Shown here: piece after piece, positions 37,901-64,000 of the stretch | Position numbering within the stretch: position 1 is the first letter of the stretch | Layout of the letters: each line of letters starts with the position of its first letter | Origin: Salinirubellus salinus | GTDB taxonomy: Archaea > Halobacteriota > Halobacteria > Halobacteriales > Haloarculaceae | Assembly (NCBI RefSeq): GCF_025231485.1 | Contig: NZ_CP104004.1 | Coordinates: 1-64,000, forward strand | DNA length: 64,000 nt | Direction of reading: 5' to 3' | Made by a program: the position numbers and the translations under genes | Notes under the pieces: generated by a model | What the model saw: the letters and a program-made list of their open reading frames with translations, nothing else | What the model was told of the DNA's origin: nothing | Databases searched by the model: none

Positions 37901-40900
37901 ATGTCTCGGCTTCTCTGTGGCCCAGATGCTGTTACAGTTGATCGGACAGCGCTCAACTGGGCCGCGAACCACTCGGACGGAAATCCTGAAAGCGTCCTCT
38001 ACATCGCGAATCAACCTCATCGTCTCCGAGAAATCGAAGCGCAGTGGGAAGGCGTCGGCCGGCCGCTGGAACTCACTCCGCTCACCCTCGACGAATTCGT
38101 CGACCGGTGTTACGATAGGGAAGAGATCGGCGGTGCTGCCTCACGGATGGACCAGCCAACCCGTCTCCGGCTCGTCGAACAGGCTCTCTTGGACTTACCT
38201 TCCAAGTGGTCGCTTATGGAAGGGGACGGACTGCCTCCGACTGGTCTCATCGAGCAGATTGAGGACCTCCTGAGTCTCGTCGAATTCGCCGGGCTGCTCT
38301 CACCTGAAGCTGTCCGCAACCGCCTAATTGAAGAAGGGCTAATCAATCTGAGTTCCGAACTTGAGGCCATCACCGAGCGGTTCTACGATGGACGAGAACG
38401 GCTCCCCGACGGTTCATCTATGACCCTTTGGGCAGAGCGGTACCGACGGGTAGCCAACTCCAATCCTGCTCAGTGCTTTCCACACACAGACGCGGTCATC
38501 ATCGGAGGTTTCGACACGTTTTCCGTTCTCGCATCGCGCGTCGTCGAAACGATCACCGAAACCTGGCCAACGGCGGCGACCTTCCCCCGATTGACCGGAA
38601 CAGCCGCTCCGAACGGCGTCGACGTCGCAACGGCCCCCGCATGGGAGTTCTTCGTCGACGACCTCGGATTCGAACCGGATACGGTCGCGGCCCGTGAGTC
38701 TCGCCCACCGGCGAACCGACGGTTAGCGTGCGCACCGTTCCGTCCTGATGCCGACACACTCTCCCTGGATGAGACGACTGCCGAAACCGTCGTCCTGTCC
38801 TCACTTCCGGGTGAAGTCCGGTATACCGGTCGGCAGGTACAGGAACTCCTGAGTGACGGTGTCAACCCAAACGACATCGGCGTGGTCGTGACTGCGCCGT
38901 CAGCGTATGCCCACTGTCTCGCCGGTGAGTTCTCTTCGCGATCCGTTCCATACGCTGTCGCTCGGGACTACGATCTGGATGGAACGTCGGTTGGTGCTGC
39001 TCTCTTGACCGCGCTGGAGCTGCTCGATGACACCGAGACGGGAATCACTGATGACCTTCGCAGTCTCCTCGATAATCCGCTCGTAGAGCCGGTGCTGCCG
39101 AGTTGGGAGACCATCGATAGCGAACAGGCATACGACGCGATTGCGGACGTGGAAGAACTCAGTGACGTCGAGGAGCCGTACCGAGCGGCCATCGACGAAC
39201 TTCTCGCCAAAGCAGAAACCGTCGAAGATGACGGAGGCGTCGAAGCCTACCGCCACTTCGTTGCGTGTCTCGGAATCAAGGACACCGTGGAAGATCGAAC
39301 GACGACCGGGTCACAACGGGTCGTCTATCGCAGTGCTGAGCGAGTCCTCAACGCCGTCGAACGGACAGGAGACGGGGACGACCTCGAACGCGCCCGACAC
39401 GCACTCGGTGCCGTCTCCGTCACCGATGATTCGACAATTCGCGATGGGCGAGTCGAAGTGCTCGGCGCGGCGGAACTCGGGATGCGGACGTTCGACCACG
39501 TGTTCGTCCTCGGGCTGACTGCGTCACACTTCCCAGGGTCTGCGAACCGACTCGCACTCGTGAACGCCGTCACCGACGCACACCCAGACTTTGCCGAAGC
39601 CGACCAAGCTCGGCGCGCTGAGTACCGTATCGCAAGCCTCGTCGCTGCCGCAGAGTCAGTCACGCTCTCGCGGCCGAAACAACAACTGGACGGGACAGAG
39701 TATATCGATGCCGGCATCCTTGCGGAATTCCGTCGAATCACCGACACTGAACCACAGCGACGAGACGAGTTCGGTCACCTCGTTGGACAGGCCCCGACCG
39801 GTCGCCGAGACAAAATTGGGGCGCGAGAAGACGCACAGCGAGCGCTCGCGACCGCCGGCGCTCGTGCTGGCCCCGAAACACTCGGCGAGTATGCGACTGC
39901 CGCGTCGTCGACCGAACTGTTCGCGGAGGCGGCCGGAAGCAGTGACTGGCTCAGTACGGAGGCAGCACCGGGGGAGGGAGTAATCGACGGGATCCAGACA
40001 GCGTCTGATCGCGGGCTTGCGCGGCCGTCAGAGCACACGGGCTGGCTCACTCCCGAGACAGCGCAGAGCCTTTCGTTCCAGCTCGACCGACTCTCGCCGA
40101 CGCAGGTAGAACGATACGCCAGTTGCCCGTTCCGTTTCTACGCGAAGGAAGTCCTCGGGCTGGAGGAAGAAGACCGCGACGAGGGGCCGATCAACCGCGG
40201 ACACTACGTTCACGATGTTCTGGAACGGTTCTACACGGAGCTCCGGGACGAGGTCGGGTCTCCAGTTTCGCTCACCGGGTTCGACCAAGAAGATCTGGAG
40301 ACGCGACTCCTCCGCGTCGCGGTTGATGAACTACAAGCGGTCGACGACGAGTTCGACGACCGCTGGCTGTTCGAACTACTGGCTGGCCTTGGTGATGCCG
40401 ACCAAAACGAGTACTACAATCGGACCGCCGTCGACGGCCGCCCCGCTGGTATCCTCGTCCGATTCATCGAAGAAGAGCTCGCGCTGTACGTCGATCCGGA
40501 TGGCCGACTTCAAAACGGCCCTCTCACGGCAGCACCGGTCTGGTTCGAAACCAAACTCTCGTTCGACGTCGACGGGACTACGATTCGCGGGGTCCTCGAC
40601 CGCGGCGAAACGACATCCGACGGCAGGACCATCGTCCGTGACTACAAAACGGGGTTCACCTCCTCCGAACGCGACACATTGGACGGACTCAGCTTCCAAC
40701 TCCCCATCTACGCGAAGATGCTGGAGGAGAACATCGACGAGGTTACCGAGGCGGTCGGGGGCGGGTACTACCGACTCAAGGAACCCGGAACGGTGAGCAG
40801 CACCGCTGGTCAAATTGGATTTGTCGGTGATGACCCGAAGAACGCGTCTTGGCGCGGGAACTCCTACCGTGACGGATATGGTGGGACACCGATGGTCTAC

Positions 40901-41203
40901 CAGAGTTCGGACAAGCCCAGTATCGAAACCCGGGCAGGCTTCCGCGAGTTCCTCGACGATGTCGTTCCGCAACGGCTCAGCAATATTGTCTCCGGCATCG
41001 AAGCCGGAACGTTCCACCCGACGATCAACGACCCCGACGACGCCGGATGTTCGAACTGTCCCTTCCGCGATGCCTGCGACGTCCGGTCCTATCGACGCCA
41101 ACTGTTCATGGAAAATATGGAATCCGAGGGACGGGGTGCGTACGTCCCACCGATAGCTCTCGGCGTAGAATGGGCTCCTGCGGTTGAGGAGGGAGAGAAC
41201 TGA
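37901..41203 (+). CDS. AddB-like PD-(D/E)XK nuclease with Fe-S cluster
   Basis: An 1100-residue protein. The N-terminal two thirds resemble an inactive helicase, with no Walker A Lys near the start (RLLCGPDAVTVDRTA). The C-terminal RecB-like nuclease shows RGHYVHDVLERFY and then GVLDRGETTSDGRTIVRDYK, with the catalytic Asp and the DYKTG Lys, and the helix motif FQLPIYAKML. Cys742 plus Cys1050, Cys1053 and Cys1059 (CSNCPFRDAC) match the 4Fe-4S staple of AddB-type nucleases. Its stop overlaps the start of the helicase partner. Together they should process DNA ends in repair and degrade foreign linear DNA. Confidence 0.8.
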   Translation: MSRLLCGPDAVTVDRTALNWAANHSDGNPESVLYIANQPHRLREIEAQWEGVGRPLELTPLTLDEFVDRCYDREEIGGAASRMDQPTRLRLVEQALLDLPSKWSLMEGDGLPPTGLIEQIEDLLSLVEFAGLLSPEAVRNRLIEEGLINLSSELEAITERFYDGRERLPDGSSMTLWAERYRRVANSNPAQCFPHTDAVIIGGFDTFSVLASRVVETITETWPTAATFPRLTGTAAPNGVDVATAPAWEFFVDDLGFEPDTVAARESRPPANRRLACAPFRPDADTLSLDETTAETVVLSSLPGEVRYTGRQVQELLSDGVNPNDIGVVVTAPSAYAHCLAGEFSSRSVPYAVARDYDLDGTSVGAALLTALELLDDTETGITDDLRSLLDNPLVEPVLPSWETIDSEQAYDAIADVEELSDVEEPYRAAIDELLAKAETVEDDGGVEAYRHFVACLGIKDTVEDRTTTGSQRVVYRSAERVLNAVERTGDGDDLERARHALGAVSVTDDSTIRDGRVEVLGAAELGMRTFDHVFVLGLTASHFPGSANRLALVNAVTDAHPDFAEADQARRAEYRIASLVAAAESVTLSRPKQQLDGTEYIDAGILAEFRRITDTEPQRRDEFGHLVGQAPTGRRDKIGAREDAQRALATAGARAGPETLGEYATAASSTELFAEAAGSSDWLSTEAAPGEGVIDGIQTASDRGLARPSEHTGWLTPETAQSLSFQLDRLSPTQVERYASCPFRFYAKEVLGLEEEDRDEGPINRGHYVHDVLERFYTELRDEVGSPVSLTGFDQEDLETRLLRVAVDELQAVDDEFDDRWLFELLAGLGDADQNEYYNRTAVDGRPAGILVRFIEEELALYVDPDGRLQNGPLTAAPVWFETKLSFDVDGTTIRGVLDRGETTSDGRTIVRDYKTGFTSSERDTLDGLSFQLPIYAKMLEENIDEVTEAVGGGYYRLKEPGTVSSTAGQIGFVGDDPKNASWRGNSYRDGYGGTPMVYQSSDKPSIETRAGFREFLDDVVPQRLSNIVSGIEAGTFHPTINDPDDAGCSNCPFRDACDVRSYRRQLFMENMESEGRGAYVPPIALGVEWAPAVEEGEN

Positions 41204-44200
41204 TGCGGCGAGACGACCTCACCAATCAGCAGGACGACGCCGTCACGGCGCTCTCACAGAACTATCCACTCACGGCCGGTGCTGGGACCGGGAAGACAAC
41301 GACACTCTCATTCCGATATCTTGCGCTTCTGGAGGACCATCCTGACGCCCTCCCCGAGAACATCCTCGTGACGACGTTCACGCGAAGGGCCGCACGCGAC
41401 CTCACGGAGACCGTCCGCGAACGCGTCTTGGACCGACTCGCCACCGCAGACGCGGACCACGAACGCTGGCGCAACGTTCTGAACGGGCTGGACGACGCGT
41501 ACATCCACACGCTGCACGCATTCTGTCAGCGCATCCTCTCCGAACACTCAACCGCAGTCGCCGGACTTGACCCCGGATTCGACACCCTCGACGACGTCGA
41601 AGCGAGCAGACTCCAGCGGGATATCGTAGACGAACTCATCGAAGAAGAACCACGAGAGGTCGAGCTCCTGCTTGACGCGTTCTCTGAGTACTCTCTCCGC
41701 GAGGTTCTCGAGGATCTGATCGGTGAGCGGCCTGACAGCGAAGTCTGGGCGGACGTCTGGAGCGCACCCGCTCGTACCGTCGATGACTACGTCACCTACG
41801 TCGAAGAGGAACTCCATCCGTTCCCGGCCGACGAGGTGGATGCACTCTGTGCCGACGAGGAACTCCGGGCGCGCGTAGAGGAACTCAAAGGCCTCGTTGT
41901 CGATCTCGACGAAACCGACCCCGGCGGCCGAACCGAGCGCGTCTGGACCGCCGTCAGACTCTTCGATGAGCCTGGCGGGCTGGATACCTTGGACTCCGTT
42001 CGTGACCGCCGAACCCGGATCTACGACATCTGTGACGAACTCACCAAATCCGGGCACGACGAGTACGCGAACTACTCGCCGGTGAAAGGAGATTGGAGCG
42101 GTACCGACGAAGACGCCGACCGCATCGGCGAACTCATCGCCGAGATCGTCGACCGACTGGATGCGACACATCGGTCTGCGGAGGGTGACGGTCTCGACAT
42201 CACCGTCGACCGCGAGAGCGCCCCGTACTACTTCGCGTTAGCTCGTCTGTTCGACGAGGCCGCCCGCAGGTACGCCGAGCGAAAACACGAGCGGAACGTA
42301 CTGGACTACACCGATCTGGTTCAGCAGACTCGCAATCTCCTACATCCGGAGCGCGGGAATGACGCCGTTCGTGAGTCACTCGCCGACCAGTTCAACTTCG
42401 TCATGATCGACGAGGTTCAGGACACCGACCCGAACCAGTGGGATATCGTTCAGTCACTCACCAGCCTCGCAAGCGACGATACTCCCTACAGCGCGCAGAA
42501 CGTCTTCGCAGTCGGCGACGAGAAACAGTCGATCTATCGCTTCCGGAATGCGGACGTCGCCGTCTTCCACGAAGCACGGAGCGCACTCGTCGGCGCAAAC
42601 GGGAGCGAGAACACAGCAACGACAGGTCAAGGGGACGATGTTGTCGGGTACCAGCTTCAGGACAATTTCCGAACGCTCCCACCACTACTCCGCTTCCTGA
42701 ACAGTATCTTCGAGGACGTCTTTGATGACGAGGCGGACGACGCTTTCGAGGCAGCACCCCAACCCCTCCGTCCCCGACGAGACAACCCTCATGACGTAAC
42801 GCCGACTGTGGAGTACCTGTTCGTCCCGGACGACGACCTCCGACCGAACGTCCTCGCTCCTGATCACCCGCTAAACGATGCACCCCCCTCGGCACGACGG
42901 TGGACGGAAGCGCAGTCCGTCGCAGCGCGTGCTACGCGCCTCGTCGACGACGAGACACAGGTCTACGAACCTGATCCGGACGACCGCTCGGAGAGTCGGC
43001 CGGTGACGTACGACGACATCGCGGTCATCATCCGGAAACGAACCCACCTCGACGAGTTCAAGCGCGCGTTCGACGACCACGAAGTTCCCTACACCGTCGT
43101 CCAGGGAGAGGGCTACTTCGACACGCCGGAAGTGCGGACGCTCACGAACCTGTTCCGCGTTCTCGCCGACCCGACAGACGACATTCACCTGTTCGGACTG
43201 CTTCGCTCTCCGATGTTCGGCTTCACCGATGACGAGCTCGCGCCGGTCGTGGAAGGAGGCGACGTCTGGGAAACGGTCGGTGAGACGGACGACCCGGAAC
43301 TCGCACGCAGTCATTCCCTGCTTGCCGAGTTGCGAGCGCTCGCTGGTGCCACTGAGGACACCGCCGGTCCACAGGTCGACTCGTGGGGCGAGATTCTCGA
43401 TATTGCGCTTGATGCAACTGGCTACCTTGTGAGTCTCAGTGCTGACGAACGACCGCGACAGGCACTCGCTAACGTCGAACAGTTCGAAGAGTACCTGCGT
43501 GAAGCCGTCAGCGACGCCGGCAGTCTCCGTTCACTCGTCACACGCCTCGACGAACGTCAGGAGTTCACCAACTACGACCCGGAGGCCGCGATTCCCGACG
43601 GCGAAACCGGGGTCCAGATACTCACTGTCCACGCCGCGAAAGGCGAAGAGTTCCCCGTCGTCATGGTACCTGGCCTCGGTGACAAATTCAACACTGACCC
43701 ACCACTCGCCGGTGGTACCGAGTTCGAAGACGTGAACGACCGGCCAGCACTCGGTCTCTCTGTTCCCGACAGTGACGATCCCTTCGACTCCAACGACACT
43801 GTCGCGAAGAAGGGACTCCAAGCGCGTCGACTCGCCAAGCTACGTGCAGAAGAGAAGCGCACGCTGTACGTCGCCTGTACGCGCGCCCGGGACCACCTGA
43901 TTCTGGCCGGCACGCACGGGACCGAAGACGACGAATCACTCACCACCCTGGAAGAACCGGATAGCGACGAACCAACCCGATGGAGCGACTTCGTGCAAGA
44001 GTCACTGCTCGGTGACGAGGAGTTACTCGCCACTCTTGAGGCTAACGGGAAGGTGACTGATCAGCTGCACGTCGACTCGCTCACCCGGAGCGAGGACCCC
44101 GACCGGGACGGGCCCACCTACTCGGTTCAGCTCCCGCAGCCAGGAGTGCCTCAGACACAGGATGTCGACGTCGAGGCGCCACCAACCTCTGTCGAGATAC

Positions 44201-44970
44201 CGGAGCGACAGCCCGGCCCCATCCAATACCGCCTCTCGCCCTTCCAAGTCGCGGACGTTCTGGGAGAGGACCAAGACGGCGAACTGGTGTTCGACGAAGC
44301 GAACCGTATCGTCCACTACCGACGAGGAACTGACGACGACACCGAGTGGGACGAAGACGACGATACGCACGCAGAAGAGGGAGATGGGCCGACCGAACTG
44401 TCCGGCCGCTTCTTCGGCGAAGCGGTCCACCGAATCTGTGAACTCCAGCATCCGCCCGAGCGCTGGGACGACATCATCGACGACGCTCTCCGGTCGATGG
44501 ACTACGAGGGAGCCGTCACCGAGGACGACCGCGATCGCGTGGCTGAACACGCCCAGCGAGCGAACGGATACGTCCGTCACGTGGTCGACAGCGACGACGC
44601 CGTCTATCGCGAACTCAAGGCAAGCGTGGAACTGGCCCACGGCTCCATCTCCGGAATCGTCGACTGCCTCGTCCTCGGTGACGAGACAGCCACTGTGGTC
44701 GACTACAAGACCGGTCGCGTCGACGAATCGAAGCTGGAGCAGAAGACCGAGTACTACCAGCCACAACTCGAGGCGTACGCTCTGATGGTCGCGGCGTTCG
44801 ACGACCGTCCGGTTACGACGAGCCTCTACTTCACCGAAATCGAAGCTGACACCGGCGTCGAATTCAGCGCCGGGAGTGGCGACGGGTCGCTCGGAGAGCT
44901 CAAATCCAGCCTGGACAGGCGGCTTCGTGAGGAAATCGAAGCGCAGATAAAAGCTGAGTTCGACATGTAA
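41203..44970 (+). CDS. AddA-like UvrD helicase-nuclease
   Basis: A 1255-residue SF1A helicase: Q motif LTNQQDDAV, Walker A AGAGTGKTTTL (Lys31), motif Ia TTFTRRAARDL, motif II MIDEVQDTDP, motif III VGDEKQSIYRFR, motif V VQILTVHAAKGEEFPVV and motif VI TLYVACTRARDHL. A C-terminal RecB-like nuclease has RFFGEAVHRICELQH and VVDYKTGRVDE (Asp1167, Lys1169), then YQPQLEAYALM. With the AddB-like partner it forms a heterodimeric end-resection machine, like bacterial AddAB. Haloarchaea usually rely on Mre11-Rad50-HerA-NurA, so this set is accessory. Confidence 0.88.
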   Translation: MRRDDLTNQQDDAVTALSQNYPLTAGAGTGKTTTLSFRYLALLEDHPDALPENILVTTFTRRAARDLTETVRERVLDRLATADADHERWRNVLNGLDDAYIHTLHAFCQRILSEHSTAVAGLDPGFDTLDDVEASRLQRDIVDELIEEEPREVELLLDAFSEYSLREVLEDLIGERPDSEVWADVWSAPARTVDDYVTYVEEELHPFPADEVDALCADEELRARVEELKGLVVDLDETDPGGRTERVWTAVRLFDEPGGLDTLDSVRDRRTRIYDICDELTKSGHDEYANYSPVKGDWSGTDEDADRIGELIAEIVDRLDATHRSAEGDGLDITVDRESAPYYFALARLFDEAARRYAERKHERNVLDYTDLVQQTRNLLHPERGNDAVRESLADQFNFVMIDEVQDTDPNQWDIVQSLTSLASDDTPYSAQNVFAVGDEKQSIYRFRNADVAVFHEARSALVGANGSENTATTGQGDDVVGYQLQDNFRTLPPLLRFLNSIFEDVFDDEADDAFEAAPQPLRPRRDNPHDVTPTVEYLFVPDDDLRPNVLAPDHPLNDAPPSARRWTEAQSVAARATRLVDDETQVYEPDPDDRSESRPVTYDDIAVIIRKRTHLDEFKRAFDDHEVPYTVVQGEGYFDTPEVRTLTNLFRVLADPTDDIHLFGLLRSPMFGFTDDELAPVVEGGDVWETVGETDDPELARSHSLLAELRALAGATEDTAGPQVDSWGEILDIALDATGYLVSLSADERPRQALANVEQFEEYLREAVSDAGSLRSLVTRLDERQEFTNYDPEAAIPDGETGVQILTVHAAKGEEFPVVMVPGLGDKFNTDPPLAGGTEFEDVNDRPALGLSVPDSDDPFDSNDTVAKKGLQARRLAKLRAEEKRTLYVACTRARDHLILAGTHGTEDDESLTTLEEPDSDEPTRWSDFVQESLLGDEELLATLEANGKVTDQLHVDSLTRSEDPDRDGPTYSVQLPQPGVPQTQDVDVEAPPTSVEIPERQPGPIQYRLSPFQVADVLGEDQDGELVFDEANRIVHYRRGTDDDTEWDEDDDTHAEEGDGPTELSGRFFGEAVHRICELQHPPERWDDIIDDALRSMDYEGAVTEDDRDRVAEHAQRANGYVRHVVDSDDAVYRELKASVELAHGSISGIVDCLVLGDETATVVDYKTGRVDESKLEQKTEYYQPQLEAYALMVAAFDDRPVTTSLYFTEIEADTGVEFSAGSGDGSLGELKSSLDRRLREEIEAQIKAEFDM

Positions 44971-48969: not shown

Positions 48970-49056
48970 TATGAGGACGTGACTCTGAGTTCACAGCATT
49001 CCCACTTATATTGTGTGACGGGATACTGGATATCCGAGTCAGGGTAAAGAAGGGAG

Positions 49057-51957: not shown

Positions 51958-51959
51958 GG

Positions 51960-52601
51960 TTAGATATGATCAGTCAGTAGCGTTCGTAGTGCTTTTTCGC
52001 CGTTCGGTGAAGACGGGGAACGACACTTTGCGTGCCAGTAGTAGCACTCTTCGTCGCTCATTCGCGCGATACCACGACAGAACGCCCGCATCCGGTCAAC
52101 CCGCTGAATGGGCTTTACACCAAGGAAGCCCAGAGCCAATCGAACGCCGACGGTCTCCGGGAGGAACACCTCGGCAGCACCGCCAGCGGTGAGTACAGAC
52201 TCATCTCGGTCTGCCCCACGGAGCGTCTCCCGTACCAGCGGGAGGATAGAGCGGAGCCGACTCTCAGACAGCCGCGTGACTTTCATCGCCGTCCAGTCGT
52301 CCCACTCCCATCTGTCGACCTCTGGATCCGCTGACTCTCCGAACACCGATTCGAACGCTTCCGTCACGAGGCCCCGATTGGGGTTACCACGCTGGAGACG
52401 GTCACGACGAGCGGACGCCTGCGCCTCGGGCAGTAGTTCGTACAGTGTCAGCGATGCACCCTCGGCGTCGTCACGACGGACGAGCGCGAAGGTTGGGCGG
52501 CCCCCGTAGACGCTACTGCCGAACTGGCCTGCTCCGATCGTCTCATCTTCGGGGCCGAGCGTTGGTGGCGCGTCTGCGTCGGGGGTAGGGTGGGACGTCA
52601 T
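51960..52601 (-). CDS. small protein of the DUF499/DUF1156 array
   Basis: A 213-residue protein. A beta-rich N-terminal part (GGRPTFALVRRDDAEGASLT, LYELLPEAQASARR) is followed by a helical half with VTEAFESVFGE and ALGFLGVKPIQRVDRMRAF and a C-terminal ECYYWHAKC that might bind a metal. Its start overlaps the DUF499 stop and its stop is two bases before the methyltransferase start, so it belongs to the system. I recall no characterised homologue and give no function; a specificity or adaptor subunit is possible. Confidence 0.7.
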   Translation of the reverse strand: MTSHPTPDADAPPTLGPEDETIGAGQFGSSVYGGRPTFALVRRDDAEGASLTLYELLPEAQASARRDRLQRGNPNRGLVTEAFESVFGESADPEVDRWEWDDWTAMKVTRLSESRLRSILPLVRETLRGADRDESVLTAGGAAEVFLPETVGVRLALGFLGVKPIQRVDRMRAFCRGIARMSDEECYYWHAKCRSPSSPNGEKALRTLLTDHI

Positions 52602-55600
52602 TGCTGAACCTCTGCGGGTACTTCGACCGGTCCTCGGCCTTGAACCTTCACGTCGATGTTCGTCGAGCCGAGCTCGTCCTGGAGCTCCGCGAGTACGTCG
52701 TCTTCCGCGTCCGTGATTGGCTCGGGGTCGTTCAGATCGACGCGGAACTTTAGTTCGACGAGCGACGCGCCGTCGAACGGGTCTGGCTGGTTCGTTACAC
52801 GGGAGAACTCGTCGATACCGCCGGTGAAGTCAGCCTGGTACGACGCCCCGGCCGACGACTCCGTCTTGTACCGCATCCGTACCGAGACGTTGTCTGCCCG
52901 GTCCTTGAACGCTTGGCGTTGGGCGATGAACGAGCCCTTCGACAGCTGATCGTCGCCACCAAGCTCGATAGTGACGCGATCAATGCCAGGAGTGCCGCCC
53001 GAGGAGGCTTTTCCGAGAGCGTGCGTCCGAACCTCGTTGAAGGCTCGGGAGGTCGCCATCAGACTCGTCGACCGCTCCCAGTCGTTCGGCCCGTCACACC
53101 GCGAACAGAGTCCATCAGGCCCCAGCTGGTCGACTTCCCGCCCGCATTGGTGACAAGTCAGCTTCTCGGGCTCGTGTTGAGGGCAGTACTGCTGGTCGAC
53201 ACCGATCTCGTTAGTACATCCTTCCTCTGCGCACGTATCCTTCGTCGTCTCTGGCGGTCGGATGACATCGTGGTGGACGTCGAGGAGCGCGTTGACATCG
53301 GTGTAGACGACGTACTCGTCGCCGATCTTGACGTCCGAATCACGAATGCTCGTGCGGACGTCCGGCGACCCGGAGAGCGGATTTGCCTTCCGCCAGTTCT
53401 CCGGACGGTCGTCCTCGTCACCGTCCCAGTAGGCGAGACCGTTCTCGCCAGCGGTGCTGTCCCAGTACGTGTACCCCGCGTCGTCGACCATCTTCGCCAC
53501 CGTCTTTCGAAGCGGCTTGGTGTTGAGGAGGTACGGGAGCCCGGGCTTCTTCGCGAACTGCGTGACCAACTGTTCGGTGGTCATGCTGTCCTGGGTCTGC
53601 TGCCAGAGCTTCTGTTTGAAGAACGCGACCCCTTTCGGACCCGCGTCAGCGCGAATTAACCGGTCTTCGAGCGTCTCTTCGACGGCGTTGACGAGCGTCG
53701 TGCCACCGTTCGCTTCAGTGGCGTTGATCGCCAGATGCGTCAGGCCGTCTCGGTCGACGTAGTACAGGTGACGGTACACACCCCGGACGAGTTCACCCAA
53801 GAGTCCGTGCGTCTGATCACGGCGCTCACGGAGCTCCTCGATCTGCTCGTTGGAGAGGTCGGCCGTCTGCTGGGAGTCGTCGAGGAGAGCCTCGATGGCT
53901 TCCAGCTGACGCGCCTCGTCGATCGCACCTTGGATACGTTCCTTGTCAGGGGCGAGGAAGAGGACGTAGTTCTTGTAGACTCGGCTCTGGGTCTCGCCAC
54001 CGTGCTTCGAGGCGGATTTCTGGTACAGCGTCTGAATCTTCTCCGGAATTTCACTCCCACCGTCGGAGACAGGGGCGGTGTCCATATGCATCACCGCGAG
54101 CTGGGGCTTGGAGACCTTGTCCGGAAGGTCAGCTGGTGACTCGGGGAAGACGACGGTCTTGAAGCCGCCAGTCCCAATCTCTGTTTTCTCTAGCCGGGAT
54201 TCGAACCGATTGCGCGCCTGCGCGTCGGGCGTGTTGTCCACCCGCTGGTCGATGATACGGATGAGGTTTGGATCAGACTTGAACCGGACGCGCTCCTCGT
54301 CGTAGAGGTAGTAACACGCGACGTTCATGTCGCCGCCAGACAGCGCCTCCAACGCCGAGTCGTAGTTGTCGAAACGGATGTCGGGGTGGCCGAGTGCGGC
54401 GTTCATCTCCGCACGCGTGAGTCCGGTTGCTTGCTCCCCGTAGGCCAGGCTATGCCAGAGGACTGTTGTCGTCAGATGGCCGCCCAGCGGTGGAATCCCT
54501 TTCTCTGTCCACTTGCGGTCTTCGAGCTGGGCATGGGCCGTGTTGTCTTCGCTGTAGATGTCAGCCGAGACAGCCGCACTTAGGTCGACGAATTCGAACA
54601 GCGTCTCACGAAGCGTCGAGTCGATACTCCCGTCGGGAGCGTTGTCAGCGGGCGTGAGGTCGTACAGTCGAATCCAGTGGCGGTCGTAGTGATCGGGCTG
54701 GTGGTTCCAGAGGTAGTAGACCGCCCGTGCGAGGAGCTTCAGTGCGCCTCGGGTTCGCTGGAACTTCGGAATCGTGTCGATCTTCTCCGTGAGCGTATCG
54801 ATGATCGTCGGGTGGAACGGGTATTCGCGTTCCAGCCGGTCGACGAAGCTGGCGTCCGTCGCCTCCTGCGGGAACTGTCGGTCACTCCCCGCGTAGTACT
54901 GGAAGTACGATTCGGCGAGCGTCTCTGCCTGGTCCCGTTCGATTTCCTCGAAGAGTCGGTGCTGGAGAACCTGGCCAACTTCGTTTTCGGAGGTCGGCGT
55001 GACGGTCTTGTGCTGTCGACGGCCGATCTGGTTCAGTTCGTCGATGAGCGTCCGAACTTCCTCTGCCTCTTCTTCGAAGGCAGTGTCCGCAATACTGTAT
55101 ACGACCGTGACCTCGTCGACCTCTGACGCGGTTTCGAGGAGTGAGAGAACGAAGCTCAGGGTCTGGCTGGCTAGCGTCGCGTTCCCGACTTCGACCGCGG
55201 ACGCCGCCTCGAGGTAGGCTGCGATCTCGTCGATGAGGATGAGGGCAGGACCATCACCAAGCTCGAACAGCCCTTTTAGGGTGTTCCCGCCAGGTGCGTT
55301 CCGATCCTGATCATATTCTTTGATATACTCGTAGCCATCGAGGCCATACAGCTGGTAGGCGATTTCTCCCCACATCGTCCGCGTGTTCGGAGCGTTCGGG
55401 TCTGACCGGTCGCTCCGGGCGTTTCGGGCGTCGACGTGTCCCCCCACGAAGACAGACGTGTCGACGTTGAGCCCCTGATCTACCGCATCCAGATAGGCAG
55501 CACCGAGGTCTTCCTCACCCTCGACGAGATGGCGGTTCAGATCGTCGATATCTGTCGGATTATTCGCGAGGTGGTACGAGGCGATGAGGTCGTGCGTCTT

Positions 55601-55897
55601 CCCGCCACCAAAACGGGTATCCAGGCACAGAATACTGCTGGAGTAACCACCGCTATCGTACCCGCCAGCCGCGAGGAACCGCCCCGCGAGGTTGCTCAGT
55701 AGCGTCCGAAGCCCGTCGGTCGGGTACGTCATATCGAAGAACTGCGTCGCATTCCGATAGACTGGAGCGGCGTCGTCCGGCGAATGTGCGACAGTTGCCA
55801 GGCTTGCGGCGAACTGGTCCTCCTGTAGCGTTCCGTCGAGGACGTCTCCCCGAGGAGTACATGCGTCAAACAGACTCGGATAATCTGAGCTACTCAT
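52598..55897 (-). CDS. DUF499 P-loop ATPase
   Basis: An 1099-residue ATPase. Walker A is CLDTRFGGGKTHDLIAS (Lys100); Walker B is ALILIDEIAAYLEAA. DUF499 features include VYSIADTAFEEEAEEVRTLI and REYPFHPTIIDTLTEKIDTI. Near the C-terminus a pair of zinc fingers is visible (CAEEGCTNEIGVDQQYCPQH and CHQCGREV with LCSRC). DUF499 proteins are the large ATPase of methyltransferase-linked defence loci and are thought to act like BrxC/PglY of BREX. It overlaps the small protein downstream and the AbrB-like gene upstream. Confidence 0.88.
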   Translation of the reverse strand: MSSSDYPSLFDACTPRGDVLDGTLQEDQFAASLATVAHSPDDAAPVYRNATQFFDMTYPTDGLRTLLSNLAGRFLAAGGYDSGGYSSSILCLDTRFGGGKTHDLIASYHLANNPTDIDDLNRHLVEGEEDLGAAYLDAVDQGLNVDTSVFVGGHVDARNARSDRSDPNAPNTRTMWGEIAYQLYGLDGYEYIKEYDQDRNAPGGNTLKGLFELGDGPALILIDEIAAYLEAASAVEVGNATLASQTLSFVLSLLETASEVDEVTVVYSIADTAFEEEAEEVRTLIDELNQIGRRQHKTVTPTSENEVGQVLQHRLFEEIERDQAETLAESYFQYYAGSDRQFPQEATDASFVDRLEREYPFHPTIIDTLTEKIDTIPKFQRTRGALKLLARAVYYLWNHQPDHYDRHWIRLYDLTPADNAPDGSIDSTLRETLFEFVDLSAAVSADIYSEDNTAHAQLEDRKWTEKGIPPLGGHLTTTVLWHSLAYGEQATGLTRAEMNAALGHPDIRFDNYDSALEALSGGDMNVACYYLYDEERVRFKSDPNLIRIIDQRVDNTPDAQARNRFESRLEKTEIGTGGFKTVVFPESPADLPDKVSKPQLAVMHMDTAPVSDGGSEIPEKIQTLYQKSASKHGGETQSRVYKNYVLFLAPDKERIQGAIDEARQLEAIEALLDDSQQTADLSNEQIEELRERRDQTHGLLGELVRGVYRHLYYVDRDGLTHLAINATEANGGTTLVNAVEETLEDRLIRADAGPKGVAFFKQKLWQQTQDSMTTEQLVTQFAKKPGLPYLLNTKPLRKTVAKMVDDAGYTYWDSTAGENGLAYWDGDEDDRPENWRKANPLSGSPDVRTSIRDSDVKIGDEYVVYTDVNALLDVHHDVIRPPETTKDTCAEEGCTNEIGVDQQYCPQHEPEKLTCHQCGREVDQLGPDGLCSRCDGPNDWERSTSLMATSRAFNEVRTHALGKASSGGTPGIDRVTIELGGDDQLSKGSFIAQRQAFKDRADNVSVRMRYKTESSAGASYQADFTGGIDEFSRVTNQPDPFDGASLVELKFRVDLNDPEPITDAEDDVLAELQDELGSTNIDVKVQGRGPVEVPAEVQQ

Positions 55898-58231: not shown

Positions 58232-60775
58232 ATGCCGACGCAGGCCGACATCGAGGATGGGGAAAGAATCGACATCACGGTCCAGGTGGTGGCTGAACTG
58301 GACCGGCCAACGAGTAAAATGGCCAAGCGGCTCAAAGTCCGCGACACTGCGGGTAACGAGTTCCCGCTCGCAATCTGGAACAATAACGCGCTGAGCGACT
58401 TCGCTTGGGAGTCGGGGCGCTGGTACGAACTTGAGCACGCAAAAGGAAACGAGTTCCGGGGTGAGAAGAGTCTGAACGGGTCTTCACGACTACGCGCTGA
58501 AGTCGTCGGATCACCCGTGGATGACACCGACAACAGCAGCGCGTCAGAGAAGAGGTCCGGGGATCAGCTATTCGACACGCTTCAGGATAATCTTCCGTAC
58601 CTCTCGCTGTTCCCCTTCGATCGCCACTTCGAGACGCTATCTGTCTACGAGTACCGCATCGAAGCCGACGACGCGTTCGAGGACAGTCCGATGGACGCGA
58701 CGTACAATCTCGCAGCGTACCTCCGCTCGTCCAGTAACGCGGCCGTCACGCACGCGGGCGTGATGTCGCTCATATCTACCGAGCCGCTGGAGGCGTACCT
58801 GCCTGACCCGTTTACACTCACGGGTGAAACTCGGGTCACCCTCCGAGCTGACGACACGGCTGACAACGAGACGATGGTTCGTCTCCTCCAGCAGCTGATG
58901 AAGAAGAGCATCAGAACCGACGAGTACGAGACGGGGCGGGTGGACCGTATCCGCACGAAGGAACCCGTTATCAGTGGGCCAGAGGGACTCTTCGAGGCGT
59001 GTCTCGCATATCGGCTTAGCATTGAGGTGCTTCCCTCCGGTGACGCCTACGTCGGGGTTGAGGCTAGCCACCACGCCCGCAGCCAGGCGACCGTCGACGA
59101 GTACATGAACCGAGTGAGCGCGACGGTCGACGAACTCGTCGACACGCACGTCGAACACGACCCAGAAACCTACTCGACGCCCGGGAGCGGGCGACTCAAG
59201 GGCGTCTCAGACAAGCGGTTCACAGACCCGATTCCGGACTTCGGAAATCAGTCGCTCGCGGACTGGTACGAGCGAAAGGACCGCGTCTCGGACGAGATGC
59301 TGGAACAGCTTCGCTCGGAGAACCCGCGGCTCGTCGAAGTGCAATACAATCCCAACAGCGACGAGACGAGTGTCCACGTCCCGCAACTTCTCCGCGTCTC
59401 CCCGCGCAAAGAAGTCGTCAAGCAGTTGGCTCCGCGTTTCCATCGGGAGTGGGATCGCCGTGCGAAGATGCTCCCTGAGGAACGATTCCAGAAGGCGACG
59501 CAGTTCATTACAGGCCTGGATGAACTCCCGGCAGTCGAGACAAGCATCGACCCGACGCCCGTCGGGCCGAGTATTTCGTTCATGTCCACGGAGGTCGACC
59601 GCGCGGACAATCTCCGGTTCGGTAACGACCGCACCGCTGACCTCCCCGGCTCCGGCCTGAGTCGATACGGCGTCTACCGTCGTCCGTCCTCGTTCAAACT
59701 CCACTACCTCGTCCCGGAACGGTATGCAGACGACTTCGTTGAGTTCCGAGGTCGGATCGAGAAGCAACTCGAGGACATCAACTGCTCGCCGGACGAAACG
59801 TCCTACAGCGAGTACGTGTTGGGTCGTGAAATCGAGTACAGTAACGCAGCCGCTGCCATCAGCGATGTCGACGCTGTTCTCGCTGCTGTCCCATCGCCGA
59901 CGAACGACTTCATTCAGGACGGTACCATCGACGACCCGTACGGGGAGTTCAAGAAGGCGCTCGGCAAGCAGACGATTCCGTCGCAGATGGTCCGAGTGGA
60001 CAACCTCGACAACAAGTGGGTCGTCCGCAACACCGCGCTCGGTATCGTTGCTGGCGCTGGCGGTGTCCCTTGGCGTGTCGACCAGATGCCCGGTGATGCC
60101 GACTGCTTCGTCGGTCTCGACGCGACCCGTGACCCGGATACCGGACAGTTCCTCGGCGCGAGCGCGAACGTCGTGCTCGCAGACGGGACCGTGTTCGTCT
60201 CGAAGACGCAATCTCTCCAGTCCGGAGAGACGTTCGACGAGGACGCCGTTGTCGACGTACTCAAAGACGTTCACAGAGAGTTCGTCCGGGCCGAGGGCGA
60301 AGCACCCAACAGTATCGTCGTTCACCGCGACGGTCGACTGTTCGAAGATGTCGACGCCATCCTGGCCCCGTTCGACGGGACGGGAATCGACATCGACATC
60401 CTCGACATCCGGAAGAGCGGGGCGCCCCGTGCGGCGTTCCGACGTAACGAACAGTTCCGCGTCGACCACAAGGGGCGCATCTTCATCGCGCAGAACGACG
60501 ACTACGGCTTCCTCACGACCACGGGCCGACCCGAATTCGACGATAGCGATGGACTCGGAACCCCGCGAACGCTCCGCATCGTCCGGCGAGCGGGTGAGAC
60601 ACCGATGCAGACGCTAATGGAACAAGTATACTGGCTCAGCGAGAGCCACGTCGGGAGCGCCCAGCGGAGCACACGGCTTCCGATAACGACCTACTACGCG
60701 GACCGGTGTGCCGAGGCTGCACGGAAGGGGTACCTCGTCAACGGCGAGATAATCAGAGGAGTACCGTACATCTGA
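58232..60775 (+). CDS. long-type prokaryotic Argonaute with N-terminal OB fold
   Basis: An 847-residue pAgo. Residues ~10-95 form an OB-fold ssDNA-binding module (ITVQVVAELDRPTSKMAKRL, FPLAIWNNNALSDFAWESGR), as described for the Natronobacterium gregoryi Argonaute. N, PAZ and MID regions follow. The PIWI domain has a complete DEDD tetrad: Asp630 (FVGLDATRD), Glu666 (LQSGETFDED), Asp700 (VVHRDGRLF) and Asp824 (ITTYYADRC). It should therefore be a guide-dependent nuclease against invading DNA or RNA. It starts a plus-strand set with a YdjM-like protein and a PLD-SF3 protein. The start at 58232 is preferred because it leads straight into the OB fold. Confidence 0.9.
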   Translation: MPTQADIEDGERIDITVQVVAELDRPTSKMAKRLKVRDTAGNEFPLAIWNNNALSDFAWESGRWYELEHAKGNEFRGEKSLNGSSRLRAEVVGSPVDDTDNSSASEKRSGDQLFDTLQDNLPYLSLFPFDRHFETLSVYEYRIEADDAFEDSPMDATYNLAAYLRSSSNAAVTHAGVMSLISTEPLEAYLPDPFTLTGETRVTLRADDTADNETMVRLLQQLMKKSIRTDEYETGRVDRIRTKEPVISGPEGLFEACLAYRLSIEVLPSGDAYVGVEASHHARSQATVDEYMNRVSATVDELVDTHVEHDPETYSTPGSGRLKGVSDKRFTDPIPDFGNQSLADWYERKDRVSDEMLEQLRSENPRLVEVQYNPNSDETSVHVPQLLRVSPRKEVVKQLAPRFHREWDRRAKMLPEERFQKATQFITGLDELPAVETSIDPTPVGPSISFMSTEVDRADNLRFGNDRTADLPGSGLSRYGVYRRPSSFKLHYLVPERYADDFVEFRGRIEKQLEDINCSPDETSYSEYVLGREIEYSNAAAAISDVDAVLAAVPSPTNDFIQDGTIDDPYGEFKKALGKQTIPSQMVRVDNLDNKWVVRNTALGIVAGAGGVPWRVDQMPGDADCFVGLDATRDPDTGQFLGASANVVLADGTVFVSKTQSLQSGETFDEDAVVDVLKDVHREFVRAEGEAPNSIVVHRDGRLFEDVDAILAPFDGTGIDIDILDIRKSGAPRAAFRRNEQFRVDHKGRIFIAQNDDYGFLTTTGRPEFDDSDGLGTPRTLRIVRRAGETPMQTLMEQVYWLSESHVGSAQRSTRLPITTYYADRCAEAARKGYLVNGEIIRGVPYI

Positions 60776-60822
60776 CCGCGTCCAGACGAGCAACCAACAC
60801 GACAACAGGGGATTCAATTCAA

Positions 60823-61404
60823 ATGGGGAACTTCGACGAACATCTCAACGCGGGGAAGGCCGCCGGACTACTTGCTGCCGTAGTCGTTGGCTTCCTCGTT
60901 CTTGACCGCGGTGGAGGCATCGGAGAAACAATCATCGTCGCCGCCGGCGTCGGCGGCGTCCTCGTGGTAGGATCGCTACTACCGGACATCGATCATCAGG
61001 CGTCAAAACCACGGCAAGCTGCTGGCAGTCTGGGGGCACTCACGGTCGTCGGGGGCGTTATCGGACTCGTCGTGTTCGCACCAGATAGCGTCGCGCTACT
61101 CGGTGGACTCGTGAACACACTGGGTGTCGGTGGGAGTCCGTCTACTCTGGGTATCGGTGTTCTCGTGATCGGTGCGGTCGTCCTCCTCGCCACCGGTGGT
61201 GACACGTTCGATTCACTGACCACGCATCGTGGGTTCACGCATTCCCTGGCGTTTGTCGCCCTCGTTGGCGTCACGGCTCTGGTCGCTACCCAACAGCTCG
61301 CCAGTCTTGGTGGCGTCCTTGGTGTCTTCGAGGGACAGAACGGTGTATTAGTAGCCGGTGCAGCTGCTGCCGGAGTTCTCGTTCATCTCGCGGTGGACAG
61401 CTAG
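60823..61404 (+). CDS. YdjM/DUF457-like membrane-bound hydrolase
   Basis: About 193 residues from the ATG at 60823 (MGNFDEHLNAGKAAGLLAAV). Five or so membrane helices surround two conserved metal-type motifs, SLLPDIDHQAS and THRGFTHSLAF, the signature of the YdjM/DUF457 membrane metal-dependent hydrolase group. Such proteins are induced by damage in some bacteria, but the substrate is unknown. It lies 47 bases after Argonaute and 51 before the PLD-SF3 gene. A membrane partner in an Argonaute gene set could act as an abortive effector, which is speculation. Confidence 0.7.
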   Translation: MGNFDEHLNAGKAAGLLAAVVVGFLVLDRGGGIGETIIVAAGVGGVLVVGSLLPDIDHQASKPRQAAGSLGALTVVGGVIGLVVFAPDSVALLGGLVNTLGVGGSPSTLGIGVLVIGAVVLLATGGDTFDSLTTHRGFTHSLAFVALVGVTALVATQQLASLGGVLGVFEGQNGVLVAGAAAAGVLVHLAVDS

Positions 61405-61455
61405 TGGCACCACCGTGACTGATACCGCGTCACCAGAAATCAAGGACCAAACCAA

Positions 61456-63603
61456 ATGAAATTCGATATACCACTCAACACGGACGAATCGGACGCCAGC
61501 CACGTGGAGATATTCAAGAGCTGGCGGTCGTTCTCCGACGTCTTCGAGGGTGCAAAGCGGATGCGCGTGGTCACCTACTGTGATTCGCCCGAGTTCATCC
61601 TCGACCTCTTCGAGGATCTGGAGAACTTAGAACGGCTGGAGGTCGTTGTCGGAGACGTCGACGACTATCGCGAGCGACTCATCGATAAGCCAGACCTCGC
61701 GGACCGACTGGAACAACTGCGCCGAGACGACAAACTGGTCATCTACCTCTGTGAGAACAAGGAGGTTCACTCGAAACTCTACTTGATCGAATACCCGGAG
61801 GAGGATCACGCAGGCGAGGAAGCCGATGAGGACGACCAGATGACACTCGGTGGAGAAGCGACCACAGAATCGGACTCGTCAGCGGAGGCCAGTGCAGCAC
61901 CGGCGAAGGTCGTCATCGGGTCACCGAACCTATCCCGCAATGCCTGGTCGAACCAGACGAACGTCGGGGTCGTGTACGACACGACGGTAGAGAGCGACCT
62001 CTACGCACAGTTCGAAGACCTGTATCAGGATCACAGAGACTCCTATAACAAGGGGGGTCCTTTCCTCGAGGACCTCTCCGAACAGCTTGAGCAGTCGAAT
62101 GACGACCGCGAAGAGGTAATCAAACTGTACACGGAGGGGCGCGTTGGGACACAAGACGAACTCGGAGAGGTCCATGGCCGCCTCGCTGACCACATCGATG
62201 CTGAAGTTGAGACGGTAGATCTCGCGCTCGATGGCGGAACAAGCTCCGAAGACGAACGCAGTCAATCAGCGGATGACGCCGCGGGAACCGATGAGTCAGC
62301 AGGGGACGGTGATCCCGACATGGCTGATGCGCCACAGGATCGTATCACGCTGTCACTCAGGGGGTACGACGAGTCGACGGTGAGTACACTGTCTCAGATG
62401 ACCGATTTCGACGCGACGGTGTCGAACGATACGCTGACCACAACCCCAGACGCTTTCCAGCGGTACGCCCAGCAGGTCTTCGACGTGCCGACGATGCACC
62501 TGAACGAAGATAGGGATCAGCTCAAGTTCCACTACGACGGCACGGTCTACCGCGTCACGCAACCACCGAAGAGTCCGGAGAAGGTAGACGAGGCGCTTGA
62601 AGAGATTGAGAACTACTTCGCGACCGTCGACGACTACGGGAATTCCAATAATTCTACGGCGGTCAAGGCGCACATGTACGAAGCGCTCCTCTGGTTCTTC
62701 TGGGCCCCCTTCGCGAACCGACAAGCAGTCTTCTACCGACAGCACGGCATCAACCTCGACAAAGCGCTCCCCTACCTCTACATCTTCGGAGAATCGAACG
62801 GTGGGAAAGGCACCTTCTGCCGCTTCGCCCTGTCACTAATCAGTGGAAACCGCGTGGAGGCTCCGGTCGACGCTGACGAGATTGGCAAACGGAAAGTCCG
62901 GAATCTCAGATCGGCACACACGTCGTTCCCCGTCGTAGTCGACGACATCACCAAGCAGAAAGTGAACTCGTTAGATACGCTCCGGAACTACTGGAGCGGG
63001 TGGACCGGGGAAACGTCCTTCCCGATGTTCGCGTTCATATCCAACGACAAGCGGCCAGGAGAGTGGTTCCGGAACCGAGCCAAGATACTCCGATTCGACG
63101 TCAACTTCATGACCTCCCATCAGGGTGAGGCAGAAGTGAATCGCCTCATCGACACGGAGAATCCAATCTTCCAGTGGTTCGGACATAAATACCTGAACCG
63201 TGACCTCGTACTGGGAGAAGACTCAGATGCACTCCGTGAAGTCAGAGCCGCGATGCTGGATCTCTACGAATTTGCTGACCGCCCCGTACCGGACTACTTC
63301 CCGACCGAACCGGCCGAGCAAGCGTACGATACCGGTCGGGAGCGCTGGCGTAACCTCATCGACCGCGAGGATGTCGAGATTAGCAAAGACGGGGATACAC
63401 TTCAGGTGACGTTTCCGGAGTCGATGAGCTTCGAGCTACATGAGTACAAACGCGACCCACCGATGACGGTTCGAATTGAGAAGCGAGGCCTCGATTTGAT
63501 CATCAAGACGCCGGACGAGTTCTTCGACTGGCTTGGTGAGACGACTGCCGACGATCCCAGGGAAGGATTCCTATCTCGAGCCCGAAACCTATTGAAGAGA
63601 TAA
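61456..63603 (+). CDS. PLD nuclease fused to SF3-like P-loop ATPase
   Basis: A 715-residue two-part protein. The N-terminal PLD domain has one HKD set: His105-x-Lys107 in EVHSKLYLIEYP and Gly155-Ser-x-Asn158 in IGSPNLSRNAWSNQTN, so a dimer is expected. After an acidic linker and a central domain (RITLSLRGYDESTVSTLSQM), an SF3/primase-helicase-like ATPase follows: Walker A IFGESNGGKGTFCRF (Lys451), Walker B FPVVVDDIT (Asp496-Asp497), sensor MFAFISNDKRPGEW and arginine region FRNRAKILRFDV. The combination suggests an ATP-driven nuclease recruited by Argonaute. It is the last intact gene of the set. Confidence 0.75.
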   Translation: MKFDIPLNTDESDASHVEIFKSWRSFSDVFEGAKRMRVVTYCDSPEFILDLFEDLENLERLEVVVGDVDDYRERLIDKPDLADRLEQLRRDDKLVIYLCENKEVHSKLYLIEYPEEDHAGEEADEDDQMTLGGEATTESDSSAEASAAPAKVVIGSPNLSRNAWSNQTNVGVVYDTTVESDLYAQFEDLYQDHRDSYNKGGPFLEDLSEQLEQSNDDREEVIKLYTEGRVGTQDELGEVHGRLADHIDAEVETVDLALDGGTSSEDERSQSADDAAGTDESAGDGDPDMADAPQDRITLSLRGYDESTVSTLSQMTDFDATVSNDTLTTTPDAFQRYAQQVFDVPTMHLNEDRDQLKFHYDGTVYRVTQPPKSPEKVDEALEEIENYFATVDDYGNSNNSTAVKAHMYEALLWFFWAPFANRQAVFYRQHGINLDKALPYLYIFGESNGGKGTFCRFALSLISGNRVEAPVDADEIGKRKVRNLRSAHTSFPVVVDDITKQKVNSLDTLRNYWSGWTGETSFPMFAFISNDKRPGEWFRNRAKILRFDVNFMTSHQGEAEVNRLIDTENPIFQWFGHKYLNRDLVLGEDSDALREVRAAMLDLYEFADRPVPDYFPTEPAEQAYDTGRERWRNLIDREDVEISKDGDTLQVTFPESMSFELHEYKRDPPMTVRIEKRGLDLIIKTPDEFFDWLGETTADDPREGFLSRARNLLKR

Positions 63604-63837
63604 CAAGAAATTCGCATAGATTAGCGCACTGTACATGAGGCGCTCCTGTAGCTCAGTGCTGTTGGGTACTTGGATTAATTGTCATTCGGCTATGTAGCCG
63701 GAGATTCTCGTCCAAGGGGGGAATACGATAGCCACGATCGAAATGTGATTTCAATAGAGGGGGCCAATTTCTATTTTAGCGTGTTCGGAATGGCTCTAGT
63801 CCAAATTCTTAAACCCTTCCAGAACAGACGTTATCGC
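63604..63837. other. intergenic region before the right-edge gene
   Basis: Contains TTCTTAAAC at about 63807-63815, correctly placed as a TATA element for a leaderless transcript starting at 63838. A tRNA-like fragment near 63640 (GCGCTCCTGTAGCTCAG) does not fold as a tRNA. No other gene is seen. Confidence 0.35.
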
Positions 63838-64000
63838 ATGGGAACTGAAGACCAAGAGGAGGAGAACCGGACGTACCCGATCCACATAGGGAATACGACG
63901 ATTCGGTTCGACGACCCCGTTCAGACCGCAGAGACGATCATGATTGAAGCAGGAACGGACGAGGATAAAACCGACCAGAAGTGGCTCTACGCTCTGGAAG
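63838..64000 (+). CDS. ubiquitin-like (multiubiquitin-type) protein, partial
   Basis: Open from the ATG at 63838 to the window edge (54 residues visible). After an acidic start the sequence TYPIHIGNTTIRFDDPVQTA, then ETIMIEAGTDED and KWLYALE, has the strand-strand-helix-strand layout of a beta-grasp domain. The spacing matches prokaryotic multiubiquitin domains (strand pair, then a helix ending in Ala-Gly). Such proteins are usually encoded with E1/E2-like or JAB-domain genes, which would lie beyond 64000. The call is tentative because only one partial domain is visible. Confidence 0.45.
   Translation, partial: MGTEDQEEENRTYPIHIGNTTIRFDDPVQTAETIMIEAGTDEDKTDQKWLYALE

Follow-up and report, generated by a model that had tools for sequence, protein, structure and literature searches.

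An APAP-family Argonaute operon on a haloarchaeal plasmid, with end-resection enzymes and an OB-fold exonuclease at related loci

The window, by which we mean the whole stretch of DNA analyzed (64,000 nucleotides, positions 1 to 64,000 of contig NZ_CP104004.1 of Salinirubellus salinus), contains three + strand open reading frames that encode an Argonaute (Ago), a YdjM-like membrane protein and a protein with PLD and SF3-like ATPase domains, here called AgaP (Table 1). Their coordinates agree exactly with the original prediction of a same-strand array, and the gaps of 47 bp (ago to the membrane gene) and 51 bp (membrane gene to agaP) are operon-like; the interval holding the extra gene parts ago from agaP by 680 bp. 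The setting is a dense defence neighbourhood on a haloarchaeal plasmid of ~193 kb. Positions 193089-249332 of the 249,332-bp contig (G000:C2) repeat positions 1-56257 of the window (99.8-99.96% identity, AddB carrying frameshifts), and the contig is a circular plasmid assembled with self-overlap. The apparent second AddAB copy in the genome is an artefact of the circular contig overlapping itself.

Table 1. Features of the window discussed in the text.
Feature	Coordinates	Strand	Details and evidence
Long-A Argonaute	58232..60775	+	847 aa; PADLOC pAgo model 1061 bits; Pfam Piwi
Ago N-terminal OB fold	58232..58561	+	AlphaFold pLDDT 86; Foldseek OB matches
YdjM-like membrane protein	60823..61404	+	193 aa; Pfam PF04307
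AgaP, PLD nuclease + SF3-like ATPase	61456..63603	+	715 aa; 80.0% identity to NpAgaP; fold match
AgaP PLD domain, ~residues 14-200	61495..62055	+	model, Foldseek, motif spacing
AgaP SF3-like ATPase domain, ~residues 370-560	62563..63135	+	invariant residues; Foldseek to SF3 helicases
AAA_14 + DUF4143 ATPase, 571 aa	56262..57977	-	Pfam; 254 bp from ago
AddB-AddA helicase-nuclease pair	37901..44970	+	NCBIfam addA 1e-97, addB 3e-12

The catalytic tetrad of the window Ago aligns with the PIWI domains of CbAgo and CpAgo, and D630, E666, D700 and D824 are conserved without exception across 19 haloarchaeal Agos of the OB type, confirming the intact DEDD site recognized in the original prediction. The N-terminal OB fold that it described was also recovered, since the best PDB matches to the model of residues 1-110 are OB domains (an archaeal OB domain, SSB and Teb1 by Foldseek). 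Assignment of the membrane protein to the YdjM family holds well above the Pfam cut-off (47.8 bits versus 29; E 1.5e-12). For AgaP, Pfam found the PLD domain weakly (E 8e-4, under cut-off) and detected no ATPase domain, and searching the PDB sequences with an AgaP profile gave zero matches, leaving the fold search alone informative. The AlphaFold model, of fair confidence (pLDDT 80), matches PLD nucleases on one side (NgoAVII R protein, SauUSI and Nuc) and SF3-type/MCM-like helicases on the other (SCCmec Cch, SV40 large T, SaPI5 primase-helicase and D5), in agreement with the predicted PLD-SF3 fusion. Across 39 homologues H105, K107, S156, N158, G445, G450, K451, D497, N530 and R541 are invariant and G155 nearly so. 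The ATPase side has an SF3-like fold with a Walker A motif (445-451), Walker B, sensor Asn and Arg finger, the roles of D497, N530 and R541 being assigned by inspection, and the PLD side carries the split motif HxK(x)~49GSxN. The split corresponds to an acidic insert (residues 117-145) that is predicted to be disordered in the AlphaFold model and is limited to part of the family, the motif halves lying 18 residues apart in many other members. A search for AgaP relatives in viral contigs found none.

This combination matches APAP, a haloarchaeal pairing of a long-A Ago with the Ago-associated PLD protein AgaP (Cheng et al. 2024, PMC11442185), for which the tested pair is that of Natrinema pellirubrum DSM 15624 (PMC11442185), located on plasmid NC_019963. 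Over their full lengths the window proteins are 73.4% (NpAgo) and 80.0% (NpAgaP) identical to this pair and are its orthologs. The window has the long-A pAgo with a complete DEDX tetrad, the adjacent co-directional PLD-family gene, though with one gene intervening, and the split AgaP motif. It shares with N. pellirubrum the gene order, the catalytic residues (D630 in both Agos; PMC11442185), the PLD motif (H105, K107 ... G157, S158, N160 in NpAgaP (PMC11442185) and H105, K107 ... G155, S156, N158 here), a divergent ATPase gene upstream and a plasmid location, and differs in having the YdjM-like gene inside the operon and AddAB upstream beyond another defence cluster. Judged by sequence, the window operon is a member of the APAP family, the core of which has already been described, and the original claim that no such system was known is ruled out by that report and by the 73% and 80% identity to its proteins. 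The main text of PMC11442185 makes no mention of an ATPase in AgaP, while noting a helicase gene next to some APAP operons.

The N. pellirubrum pair restricts a plasmid and an ssDNA virus; plasmid loss requires NpAgaP catalysis and defence against the ssDNA virus requires NpAgo catalysis, and NpAgaP alone is toxic, a toxicity that NpAgo suppresses (PMC11442185). We consider it very probable that the window operon is likewise an APAP defence system in which Ago provides targeting and AgaP is the effector against dsDNA plasmids. In such a system Ago would bind short guides and locate matching invader DNA, its DEDD site would attack single-stranded DNA invaders, and AgaP, restrained by Ago, would act on double-stranded plasmids, with its PLD domain cutting the DNA. 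The SF3-like motor of AgaP probably assembles into a ring, which would unwind or pump the DNA under cleavage; Ago probably uses its OB fold to hold ssDNA or touch AgaP, and resection enzymes may supply ssDNA or guides. In BPAS and SPARTA, built on long-B and short pAgos, the Ago likewise comes with an effector that is toxic by itself (PMC11442185), but the tetrad is missing from these Agos and their mode of action is abortive infection; the inactive PIWI domain that marks such abortive systems is not found here.

Genuine Ago matches are present in 56 of 394 haloarchaeal genomes (OB-only matches were taken out by hand) and AgaP-like proteins in 95. The two occur together in 39 genomes versus 13.5 expected (p = 3e-15) and lie within ~2 kb of each other in ~27, so that the proposed linkage of Ago to the PLD-SF3 protein stands. 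Since no Ago was detected in 56 of the 95 genomes with AgaP, AgaP is not solely the partner of Ago. Distances among the Agos show no correlation with those among the AgaPs (Mantel r 0.07, n 11), which gives no support to strict co-evolution and indicates that pairs have been swapped. In the AgaP tree, a quick tree with long-branch warnings, adjacency to Ago switches at least 4 times at starred branches (6 in the best count). The incongruent Ago and AgaP phylogenies, together with the dense defence surroundings, could be taken to mean that the two are mere defence-island neighbours without functional coupling. This is most improbable, however, given that short-gap operons recur in several Ago clades and that the ortholog is co-transcribed and functionally coupled (PMC11442185).

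The membrane protein had been proposed as a constant third partner, and on this point the co-occurrence search that the original prediction called for split: Ago and AgaP are linked, but co-occurrence of the membrane gene with AgaP does not exceed chance (p 0.13). The trio is not confined to this replicon, being found among the sampled genomes in the window, G242 and G346 (Halorubrum salsamenti Y69), with a decayed remnant of the Ago-membrane-AgaP order in G318; otherwise the pair occurs without the membrane gene, which in ~25 other genomes lies away from Ago. We also rejected the idea that the membrane protein is truncated or decayed, as its haloarchaeal relatives end at about the same last residue and its dN/dS is 0.16. 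Because this value indicates purifying selection, the gene probably does something, and our leading view is that it is probably a maintained, lineage-specific accessory outside the APAP core, so that in the window the Ago and PLD core is the known part and the membrane gene a local addition. A mechanistically different three-gene system, with the membrane protein as a true component serving as an anchor or as an Ago-activated membrane effector, would be consistent with its retention at the same place with 47-51 bp gaps and low dN/dS, with the remnant in G318 and with the use of membrane effectors by other, short pAgos (cited in PMC11442185). We regard it as unlikely, since the gene is missing from the remaining Ago-AgaP loci, among them that of the functional pair in N. 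pellirubrum, lies away from Ago in ~25 genomes and co-occurs with AgaP no more often than by chance.

Two features had been overlooked in the original prediction: the divergent ATPase gene beside Ago and the resection-machine operons of related loci. Most Ago loci of the OB type, including that of N. pellirubrum, retain the AAA_14 + DUF4143 gene in divergent orientation upstream of Ago. Homologues with at least 48% identity occur in 34 genomes, 23 of which have Ago versus 4.8 expected (p 3e-14). Because the gene also adjoins AddAB genes without Ago, it is not an exclusive partner of Ago; it is a more regular associate than the membrane protein, possibly with a regulatory role. A gene for a metallo-beta-lactamase-fold protein (~760 aa) lies beside this ATPase gene at five loci (L063, L064, L127, L130 and L131), with or without Ago.

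Ago was called at 38 haloarchaeal loci, and at ~34 of these an end-processing helicase-nuclease is encoded within ~9 kb, a count that is based on our own script-made gene calls, takes in MrfAB-like pairs and single helicases, and includes many closely related loci. The clearest cases are single operons. One set is that of the haloarchaeal Agos of ~890 aa, a group to which we take the NgAgo of Natronobacterium gregoryi to belong. These Agos share the N-terminal OB fold and catalytic tetrad of the window Ago at ~36% identity, and behind them come AgaP and a full set of AddAB-type genes. Gene order was measured at 11 of their loci and reads Ago-(63 bp)-AgaP-(5)-AddB-(-4)-PDDEXK nuclease-(-4)-AddA, with small deviations in two. 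Halobaculum litoreum has AgaP-Ago-AddB-(-4)-AddA, and G244 has Mre11-(-4)-Rad50-(2)-NurA-(-1)-HerA-(23)-AgaP-(31)-Ago. Both types of gene are otherwise scarce, with 2-7 UvrD-type matches and 1-3 NurA genes per whole genome. G346, the closest relative of the window, has an Mre11/SbcC-like pair directly 3' of AgaP. In the window itself the AddAB pair is parted from the Ago operon by another defence cluster, and the order AddAB ... ATPase-Ago-membrane-AgaP is conserved in G242; the window AddAB is possibly a linked resection machine outside the Ago operon. Since N. pellirubrum has no resection machine near Ago-AgaP, the link is recurrent, not obligatory. Nevertheless, that two non-homologous resection machines occupy one slot suggests that end resection is important to Ago-AgaP.

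For other Agos, guides derive from RecBCD-processed ends and TtAgo co-precipitates AddAB, although the published cases did not strictly need RecBCD to load guides (PMC10269773). The AddAB/RecBCD-assisted TtAgo, CbAgo and SeAgo resemble the present loci in linking end-processing enzymes to a catalytically active Ago (PMC10269773), but use general enzymes of the host, whereas many haloarchaeal relatives encode theirs within the Ago operon. In the literature searchable here we found no mention of a complete resection machine, whether AddAB-type or Mre11-Rad50-NurA-HerA, within Ago-AgaP operons. Helicases and nucleases are abundant in defence islands regardless. Relatives that carry their own end-resection machine in one transcription unit, where either of two non-homologous machines can fill the slot, raise the locus above routine. 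Together with the Ago-less AgaP loci described below, they make the origin of guides and the restraint of a toxic partner nuclease in active prokaryotic Argonautes testable questions.

The same neighbours, AddAB, Mre11-Rad50 and NurA-HerA, are repair enzymes, SF3 motors commonly serve the replication of plasmids and viruses, and other Agos help to complete chromosome replication (PMC10269773), all of which would fit a role of Ago, the SF3 motor and the resection enzymes in plasmid replication, decatenation or repair, acting on replication ends. Such a non-defence role seems very unlikely to us in view of the restriction of plasmid and virus by the ortholog (PMC11442185), the defence-island setting and the many copies that are chromosomal.

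Further insight into the organization of these loci came from genomes in which AgaP occurs without Ago. In six genomes AgaP is 85-92% identical to that of the window and no Ago match is found; one of these proteins (G177) lacks the N-terminal PLD part, and the other five retain H105, K107 and the GSxN residues. A further locus of this type occurs in G101, where a distant Ago is encoded on a separate replicon. The order at these loci is the ATPase gene, AddB-PDDEXK-AddA, then, on the opposite strand, a gene for an OB-DEDDy exonuclease, then AgaP. The exonuclease part gives a weak but consistent match to the family-B polymerase exonuclease, and alignment and HMM comparison (E 1e-12 to 2e-17 for full-length members) show its OB domain to be homologous to that of Ago. 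The simple idea that this exonuclease replaces Ago is weakened by Halosimplex aquaticum (L139), where the order is AddB2-PDDEXK-AddA, OB-exonuclease, Ago, AgaP, with Ago between exonuclease and AgaP, and by H. carlsbadense (L152), which has the same gene set with Ago split over two called ORFs; both proteins are thus encoded side by side. From these gene orders, Ago appears to be an insertable or losable unit in such loci. Because AgaP is toxic without Ago in the published case, another restrainer is expected where Ago is missing, and the OB-fold exonuclease could be an alternative controller of AgaP. No mention of an Ago-less AgaP beside an exonuclease with an Ago-homologous OB was found in the literature searchable here.

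The Ago-less loci also bear on whether the operon is an abortive or toxin-antitoxin unit, with Ago as the antidote and AgaP killing the cell or stabilizing the plasmid. Although NpAgaP is toxic without NpAgo (PMC11442185) and the window locus is plasmid-borne, we think this improbable: AgaP of ~85% identity survives without Ago in five genomes, and the outcome in N. pellirubrum was not abortive, viral DNA being suppressed without cell death and the plasmid expelled (PMC11442185).

Within the defence reading preferred above, we tentatively propose, at somewhat less than even odds, that Ago-AgaP is an exchangeable front end for a defence machine coupled to end resection. A dedicated AddAB-type or Mre11-Rad50-NurA-HerA enzyme would open invader ends, giving ssDNA or guides; these would be recognized by an OB-fold nuclease, either Ago or, in Ago-less loci, the OB-DEDDy exonuclease; and AgaP would destroy the DNA under control of the OB protein. 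The divergent AAA/DUF4143 ATPase would be part of many such units, and the upstream AddAB pair would be the resection part in the window.

Several other genes and sequences were noted near these loci. Between AddAB and the ATPase gene, the - strand of the window (45040-55897) carries genes for DUF499, a DUF1156 methylase, DUF7680 and a PLD-SNF2 helicase, a Hma/DISARM/BREX-like defence cluster that falls under the curated NCBIfam cut-offs. Just 3' of AgaP, the sequence gctcctgtagctcag (window 63640-63690) resembles the 5' half of a tRNA; ARAGORN called no tRNA there, and it is possibly a remnant. A DUF2797 gene lies directly 5' of, and often overlaps, the ago gene of one haloarchaeal clade (L094-L100), together with NurA-HerA-Rad50-Mre11. 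Farther downstream of the window AgaP (L121:3527-7554, + strand) lies an MrfAB-like pair, an RNase_H_2-HHH exonuclease and a DEAD-MZB helicase, and this pair is found next to Ago as well, in L085, L099 and L100. Finally, the genes 3' of AgaP (window 63838-64000, L121:838-3363, + strand) encode three proteins: one of 90 aa, which resembles ubiquitin on visual inspection and matches no family, one of 163 aa, and one of the JAB-ThiF E1-like type. This set resembles a ubiquitin-like conjugation operon and is common to Ago-less AgaP loci.
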